Below are positions 35,088 to 36,814 of a stretch of 36,814 bases of DNA, piece after piece. Under the pieces are notes generated by a model, which was not told where the DNA came from, did not search any database, and saw only the letters and a program-made list of their open reading frames with translations. Both the position numbers and the translations under genes were made by a program. Every line of letters starts with the position of its first letter. The first letter of the stretch is position 1. The DNA is from Gemmatimonadota bacterium (lineage in GTDB: Bacteria > Gemmatimonadota > Gemmatimonadetes > Longimicrobiales > Gaopeijiaceae). The stretch is from NCBI GenBank assembly GCA_007121775.1, contig SKJY01000095.1, forward strand, positions 1 through 36,814, in the 5' to 3' direction.

Positions 35088-36355
35088 GACCCGGGTTGAT
35101 GGGGAGAGCAGCGAGGACGATCCCCGGTCTCTTCATCATCCTGGCGCTCGGCGGGTGTGTAGACAGGACCGACGAGGCCGCCGGGGTTGCACTCCTCTCC
35201 CTGACCGCTCCCCTCCCTGCCTCAGCAGGAGCAGGTATGCCCTTTGTGGCGGGGACGTCGGACGGATTCCTGGTGAGTTGGACCGAGCCCACTGGGGAGG
35301 TGGGAGCCGGAGGGATGGAGGAGTTCGCAGTCCGGTGGGCTGCCCTGGACCGGGAGGGAAACTGGTCTGAGCCCCGTACCCTCGCCGCCTCCGACGACTT
35401 CTTCGTGAACTGGGCCGACTTCCCCTCCATCGCCTACGGTGGTGAGGGGCGGATGGCCGCCCATTGGCTGGCCCGGAGCGGGGACGGAACCTTCGACTAT
35501 GATGTGGTGGTGAGCACCTCCACCGACGGAGGTGCCTCCTGGTCTGAGCCCAGGATCCTGCACAGCGACGGAGTACAGGCCGAGCACGGTTTTCTCTCCT
35601 TCTTCCCCCAGGCCGACGGGTTCGGAGCCGTCTGGCTCGATGGTCGGGAGATGCCTGGCGGGGGCCCCATGACCCTGCGAGCCGGCCTCGTTGAGTGGGA
35701 CGGCGCCACCAGGGATCTGGATGTTCTGGATGCCAGGATCTGCGAGTGCTGCCAGACCGGCGCGGCCCTTACCGACGAAGGTGTGGTGGTAGTCTATCGG
35801 GGTCGGAGTGCCGACGAGATTAGGGATATCCACGCAGTCCGGCAGGTGGATGGTCGATGGGAGGCTCCTTCCCCTGTCCATGCCGATGGATGGAACATCG
35901 CCGCCTGCCCGGTCAACGGCCCGGCCGTAGCCGCTCGGGGGATGGAGGTGGTCACCGCCTGGTTCACCGGCGCAGAGGAGATCCCGAGGGTACGCGTGGC
36001 CTTCTCCAGCGACGCCGGCGCCACCTGGGGTGACGCTGTGCAGGTGGATGACGGGGCCCCCTTGGGCCGGGTGGATGTGGTCATGCTTCCCGACCAGGGG
36101 GCCCTGGTGGTCTGGCTTGAGGCTGGCGCCGACGATGCCACGCTCCTGGCCCGGCGGGTGTGGCCTGACGGTCGACTCGCCCCCATCGCGGAATTGGCGG
36201 GCACCAGTGGGGCCCGTGCCTCCGGGTTTCCGCGGATGGCCGCATCCGAGTCCGGTCGGATCCTCCTTGCCTGGACGGAACCCGGCGGAGCCGGCGAGGG
36301 CGAGTCGGCGGTGAGGGCAGGGTGGGTGGAGGTGGAGATGGAGGAAGGCAGGTAG
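35084..36355 (+). CDS. Sialidase/BNR-like beta-propeller lipoprotein
   Basis: Lipobox LALGGCVD; STDGGASWSEP and SSDAGATWGDA Asp-box repeats; DARICECCQTG motif. Confidence 0.8.
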   Translation: MRPGLMGRAARTIPGLFIILALGGCVDRTDEAAGVALLSLTAPLPASAGAGMPFVAGTSDGFLVSWTEPTGEVGAGGMEEFAVRWAALDREGNWSEPRTLAASDDFFVNWADFPSIAYGGEGRMAAHWLARSGDGTFDYDVVVSTSTDGGASWSEPRILHSDGVQAEHGFLSFFPQADGFGAVWLDGREMPGGGPMTLRAGLVEWDGATRDLDVLDARICECCQTGAALTDEGVVVVYRGRSADEIRDIHAVRQVDGRWEAPSPVHADGWNIAACPVNGPAVAARGMEVVTAWFTGAEEIPRVRVAFSSDAGATWGDAVQVDDGAPLGRVDVVMLPDQGALVVWLEAGADDATLLARRVWPDGRLAPIAELAGTSGARASGFPRMAASESGRILLAWTEPGGAGEGESAVRAGWVEVEMEEGR

Positions 36356-36412: not shown

Positions 36413-36521
36413 GGCTCTTCTCCAAACTCGGTGCAGCGGGGCCGCTGAGGGGCCGAATGAGGAGGCTGGGGCTTGTTCGTGGATGCTGTTGTGGGGGGAT
36501 GCTCCTGTGGCAGTACCACTG
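36413..36521. repeat. Direct repeat copy A (109 bp)
   Basis: Ungapped alignment to 36706-36814; 10 mismatches counted by eye (99/109). Confidence 0.92.
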
Positions 36522-36677
36522 AGGCCGGGCTTGCCCGACCAACACCGTGCACGAACAGGCGCGAGGGGATGGCCCACAAGGCCCTCAAGGCCGAGCGGAA
36601 GGGTCGGTTCGAACAACCGGGATCCAAACGACCCGAAAAGGCGTGGGGGAGGCTTGAGGATTCCGGCGGGATCCTCC

Positions 36678-36707
36678 CCAAAAATAGAATCTGGATTCTA
36701 TTTTTGG
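36678..36707. repeat. AT-rich perfect inverted repeat
   Basis: ccaaaaatagaatc-tg-gattctatttttgg: 14-bp arms, 2-nt spacer. Confidence 0.92.
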
Positions 36708-36814
36708 ATCTTCTCCAAATTCAGTGCAGCGGGGTGGCTGAGGGGCTGAATGGGGAGGCTGGGGCTTGTTCATGGATGCTGTTGTGGGAGGATGCTCCTG
36801 TGGCGGTACCACTG
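36706..36814. repeat. Direct repeat copy B (109 bp visible; may continue past window)
   Basis: Same 109-bp block as copy A, offset 293 bp, cut by the window end. Confidence 0.92.

Follow-up and report, generated by a model that had tools for sequence, protein, structure and literature searches.

The right edge of a contig from a Gemmatimonadota MAG raises the question of what kind of sequence is repeated there. The window analysed, 36,814 nucleotides in length, is the complete contig C48 (G000:C48:1-36814) of this genome (G000; 3.25 Mb, 367 contigs, 95% complete). A core at 36413-36521 (copy A) recurs at 36706-36814 (copy B) with 99 of 109 bases identical and no gaps, and eight of the 10 substitutions between the copies are transitions. 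The two copies are 293 bp apart, start to start, with 184 bp of intervening sequence. This direct repeat had been described in an initial annotation and was reproduced exactly by alignment. The last gene called by a codon model (35099-36355; forward strand, as are all window features below except the palindrome P) encodes a BNR-repeat-like protein, according to a sub-threshold Pfam match, and no gene is called beyond it, so the repeat block is intergenic, as first reported. The sequence to the left of copy A differs from that to the left of copy B, which had also been noticed. Two readings had been offered, a tandem array of about 293-bp units and a dispersed repeat family. We consider it probable that each of the two repeats is the left end of a non-autonomous, gene-less DNA transposon (MITE) with ISL3-type ends; the ends show a statistical preference for P, and we infer from the arrangement of the copies the nesting of one element in another.

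Searching the source genome with the core gave 35 places on about 33 contigs among the matches listed (E<=1e-3), with an E value of 1.9e-39 for the best other copy, far above chance, and the dispersed family is therefore real. Copies occupy intergenic sites of every gene orientation, and no gene is called inside them. The suspicion that a whole contig had broken at the repeat proved correct: C48 ends within repeat sequence, and six contig ends carry the repeat with bases identical to the very end, the pairwise shared length being about 104-117 bp. This is the pattern in which a k-mer assembly halts at a repeat, and the repeat accounts for one class of contig breaks in the MAG. The position of copy B at the extreme end of its contig might suggest an assembly duplication, but copies A and B differ at 10 sites, the stop point is common to six contigs that are identical over about 104-117 bp, as in a k-mer graph, and the 35 dispersed copies (among the matches listed) have different flanks. 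Duplication by the assembler can practically be dismissed.

The 109-bp length of the repeat is set by the end of C48, which truncates copy B, whereas the left edge at 36413 is not arbitrary and represents a true element end. The start of the repeat block coincides exactly with a terminal inverted repeat (TIR), GGNTCTTCTCCAAAnTnnGTGCAG, at which the repeat begins in about 24 distinct places (27 rows, about three of them chance matches). The TIRs are about 24 bp long and start with GGNTCTTC. In the window they lie at 36413-36436 in copy A (GGCTCTTCTCCAAACTCGGTGCAG) and, by TIR comparison, at 36706-36729 in copy B (GGATCTTCTCCAAATTCAGTGCAG). The same TIR as in copy A bounds a complete copy on C215, which is 282 bp long, has TIRs at both ends (GGTTCTCCTCCAGAC / GGGTCATCTCCAAAG) and is flanked on both sides by CTTCTTATG, a target-site duplication matching at 9/9 positions (8 bp with the TIRs aligned). 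This is the one perfect duplication on a single contig. Those at C166 and C324 are decayed (7/9 and 6/8), and inspection of the flanks of the C28 and C315 elements revealed no target-site duplication. Weaker TIR pairs occur at C166, C315 and C324, the match is weak for the right TIR of both C324 and C28, and many copies have just one recognisable TIR.

Empty sites are seen in related genomes. The gap between convergent genes that holds the C215 copy is 412 bp, versus 163, 181 and 310 bp between the orthologous genes in G005, G003 and G006, and at C300 the source genome has a gap of 346 bp where G001 has 83 bp and G003 has 45 bp. Neither P nor the hairpin Q (described below) was found in the orthologous gaps of C215 and C300 in the sister species. 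Two TIRs, a duplication and empty orthologous sites together identify the sequence as a gene-less mobile element; the repeat is a MITE and not a simple tandem array. Copy A (36413-36705), delimited by the repeat, its TIR and homology to other copies, is the left part of such a MITE-type element, running from the left TIR through Q to P. Its homology to other copies extends to about 36652 (36419-36652 and 36645-36710), and P is presumably part of the same element. Copy B (36706-36814), recognised by the repeat match and the shared contig ends, represents the left end of another element, truncated by the contig end. The conserved core and variable flanks of the initial annotation are more aptly seen as a TIR-bounded element adjoining a separate palindromic repeat. 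Like other bacterial MITEs, the element is short (282 bp in the best copy), gene-less, dispersed and intergenic, with TIRs, 8-bp duplications and AT-rich targets. It differs in its strong preference for one palindrome, and in that the bin yielded no cognate ISL3 transposase.

The palindrome P (AAAAATAGAATCTGGATTCTATTTTT, 36680-36705, strandless) is an inverted repeat within a 30-bp perfect palindrome at 36678-36707. Among the matches listed there are 77 copies of P in the source genome, 27 in G001 and 11 in G005, with 0-2 per genome in the rest of the genus, and a reversed control of P gave zero matches in the same searches. In the sister species P is solitary and occurs at varied, nearly always intergenic sites. 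The core, GAATCYRGATTC, is nearly constant, and the two adjacent base pairs often co-vary (TA/TA, CC/GG, GC/GC). Across species the flanking pairs change on both arms while the core is kept (window 36680-36705; L214-L231). P looks like a protein-binding or REP-like site. P was also considered as an intrinsic terminator, which we do not claim: a terminator scan gave no match, and P of the sister species (AAATGCGAATC..GATTCGCATTT) has no long T run and is found in divergent gaps as well.

In the source genome, 14 of the about 24 TIR starts directly adjoin P, always at one fixed position. When 26 flanking 8-mers were compiled by hand from the alignments, 16 resembled the P half-site AAAAATAG/CTATTTTT at 6/8 or more positions, versus 0.19% of random 8-mers. 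The flank of copy A, CCTCTTCC, is not AT-rich. At C292 the TIR is preceded by AAAATAG alone, beside a module (X) which stands before an intact P on C218, and the C292 site thus reads as a P split by insertion. P also lies inside the TIR-to-TIR elements at C324, C28 and C315, and at C315 and C43 a full P stands on both sides, which is unexpected from a simple 8-bp duplication. P is a genus-wide intergenic repeat and an insertion hot spot, in the sense of a statistical preference. Insertion sequences that target REP palindromes include ISPpu9, ISPpu10, ISPa11 and ISRm22 (PMC1525189), and these likewise insert into dispersed intergenic palindromes at a single fixed position. The families listed are IS3, IS110, IS4, IS256 and IS5, without ISL3 (PMC1525189). 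In the present case the target palindrome is, in addition, found inside the mobile elements. The locus offers a testable case of ISL3-type elements strongly preferring a palindromic repeat, and bears on the origin of bacterial intergenic mosaics.

Such mosaics could also arise in another way, as REP/BIME-type combinations of palindromic units and extra motifs that are spread by a Y1/RAYT transposase acting on single-stranded hairpins. P is indeed a short, dispersed, intergenic palindrome with 77 copies among the matches listed, the units form mosaics, and both Q and P are hairpins. Set against this, the 95% complete bin has no match to Y1_Tnp (PF01797), and the element on C215 is bounded by a TIR at either end and a perfect 8-9-bp duplication. 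Y1 transposition is not known to generate target-site duplications, and a TIR combined with such a duplication indicates a DDE transposase. We regard a REP/BIME mosaic as an unlikely account of the repeat, although P itself, separately from the MITE, could have a REP/BIME origin. The likeness to published REP/BIME mosaics with RAYT (PMC2817692) lies in the intergenic mosaics of palindromic units. The difference lies in the TIR and duplication, and in that the search for a Y1 transposase gene found none here.

If the repeats are MITEs with a preference for P, the spacing of copies A and B may be explained by the order of sequences around them. In G001 a convergent gene lies about 20 bp beyond the BNR-like gene, and it is this BNR-like orthologue of the window's neighbouring gene that fixes the empty site in G001. 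The orthologue of the convergent gene in the source genome (82% identity) is at the start of another contig, C321, and C48 and C321 were linked by this synteny. C321 carries a TIR end, GGAGAAGACCC, followed by CTATTTTT and then by a module (V) that elsewhere is the usual right neighbour of P. The same CTATTTTT precedes copy B, an 8/8 match across C48-C321. In the window it forms the right arm of P (36698-36705) and would be the left copy of an 8-bp target-site duplication, with its partner at L232:198-205 on C321. The simplest reading takes copy B for the left end of an element whose insertion into P duplicated 8 bp, and P-V for the right part of copy A's element. The target of copy B would then have been copy A's own P, with CTATTTTT as the duplicated 8-mer, and the length from a left TIR through the internal P (293 bp in the window and about 300 bp at two other loci) would set the spacing of a nested pair. 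As the elements carry P inside, they can serve as each other's targets.

Pairs with similar spacing are found at three loci (293 bp on C48, 307 bp on C207 and 309 bp on C158), which is the part of the tandem-array proposal that stands. A head-to-tail array of 293-bp units produced by unequal crossing-over or slippage would give such regular spacing, but the copies are mostly single and dispersed, copy B begins exactly at a TIR directly after P with a different flank to the left of copy A, and the C321 side shows a TIR end and the matching 8-mer CTATTTTT. An array of this kind is quite improbable, and the spacing of about 300 bp at C48, C207 and C158 fits better with nesting in the carried P, to which we infer it is due. 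Nesting of transposons in a target that they carry themselves would be a mechanism for generating regularly spaced non-coding repeats. Nothing here hints at a new molecular machine.

The element ends point to the transposition system involved. The MITE ends follow the ISL3 pattern, with a TIR starting GG[CGT]TCTTC and 8-bp duplications. In a published ISL3 element the 24-bp ends start with GG and the repeat, TTCTTTTT, is 8 bp long, a length described there as classical for ISL3; a recombined copy of it has the flank AATTTTTC (PMC7643977). Of 126 genomes from the same bacterial family, 20 encode ISL3 transposases, among them a full-length one in G005, which is of the same genus. The ends of these local ISL3 elements, where found, are mostly GG[CT]TC(T/C)TC.CC, and four of the elements have perfect 8-bp duplications (GGTTTTTC in G005). 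The inner TIR bases of the G005 element differ from those of the MITE, and no insertion sequence with ends identical to the MITE's was found among the ISL3 elements compared. The end motif, the duplication length and the AT-rich targets fit ISL3, an assignment made by motif and not by identity of the ends. CLJ-ISL3 / ISPst2 (PMC7643977) and the ISL3 elements of the family (L186, L188, L193, L205) share with the MITE imperfect ends of about 24 bp starting with GG, as well as 8-bp duplications at T-rich targets (TTCTTTTT, GGTTTTTC), but are about 1.4-3 kb long and encode a transposase, whereas the MITE encodes nothing. One single-contig genome of the same family, G034:C1 (L193, L205), has at least 10 ISL3 transposase genes that are nearly identical; the two of its elements that were analysed are 1641 bp long with perfect 8-bp duplications.

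The source bin has no match to the ISL3 transposase (PF01610, DDE_Tnp_ISL3), and no autonomous ISL3 element with a DDE_Tnp_ISL3 gene between such ends was found in it; as the bin is incomplete and its contigs break at repeats, one may have been missed. Mobilisation of the MITE probably depends on an ISL3-family DDE transposase that is encoded elsewhere and acts in trans. Literature searches for MITEs in Gemmatimonadota and for ISL3 insertion near terminators returned nothing relevant. Together, these observations suggest a probable new family of ISL3-type miniature transposons with a marked palindrome preference and self-nesting. We propose more tentatively, as something that may or may not hold, that an ISL3-type system of this Gemmatimonadota genus homes to a specific REP-like palindrome (core GAATCYRGATTC), and that its MITEs captured P, became mutual targets and so formed nested arrays of fixed spacing.

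The remaining part of the element is the hairpin Q, located about 40-60 bp past the TIR start and consisting of GTTCGTGGATGCTGTTG, a 48-49-nt loop and the opposing arm. In copy A it spans 36475-36556 (arms 36475-36491 and 36540-36556, 48-nt loop) and matches model R1 at 36465-36572 with an E value of 1.2e-23, the copy itself being in the model. In copy B its left arm, GTTCATGGATGCTGTTG, lies at 36768-36784, as identified by hairpin comparison. With the outer CCCCT/AGGGG, Q can be drawn as a 31-bp stem. Besides G001 and G005, Q is found in four further genera of the family, with one occurrence in a different family, and is a hairpin family older than the MITE. A collection-wide pattern scan for two-armed Q matched a single contig, PWZC01000064, and gave no sign of a broader distribution.

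The long arms of Q, its occurrence in other genera and a loop that stays near-constant at 48-49 nt though loop sequences differ in diverged copies would suit a repeated structured non-coding RNA gene or cis-regulatory RNA, with Q as the core and P as the terminator. Yet the repeat has no Rfam 15 match at the curated score (tRNAs elsewhere in the loci were the only ones), the folding of the full element does not surpass that of shuffled sequences (z -1.4), the terminator scan called none, and the intergenic sites are found in every gene orientation. The conserved RNA structure raised in the initial annotation was not borne out either, as the covariation of Q in an alignment of the copies is at or near shuffle level and not clearly above it; we claim neither structural selection nor an RNA function. 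An RNA of this kind is highly improbable. Q was also compared with the integron attC hairpin, which opens with RYYYAAC and closes with GTTRRRY. Q opens with GTTCGTG and closes with CACGAAC, the wrong box orientation, and was rejected as an attC site.

Further hairpin arrangements were seen beyond the window. In other species and genera (L085, L086, L088, L092, L101, L105, L108; G001, G030, G068) the arms of Q are kept (CCCCTnnnCGTTTGTTCTTGGATGCTGTTGG and its inverse) and the loops are of unrelated sequence and variable length. In another genus, L087:840-1110 (G008:C104) holds the Q arm in three direct and two inverted copies at 46-47-bp spacing, forming a nested palindrome array. Downstream of Q, a further hairpin, GATTTCAATCAC...GTGATTGAAATC, is present in two or three tandem copies (L017:1700-2000, L024:1800-2000). 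Partial tandem copies (GTGGGCCCGGCAGG...) at L020:1750-2050 (G000:C92) are similar to the final part of a tRNA-like sequence next to them.
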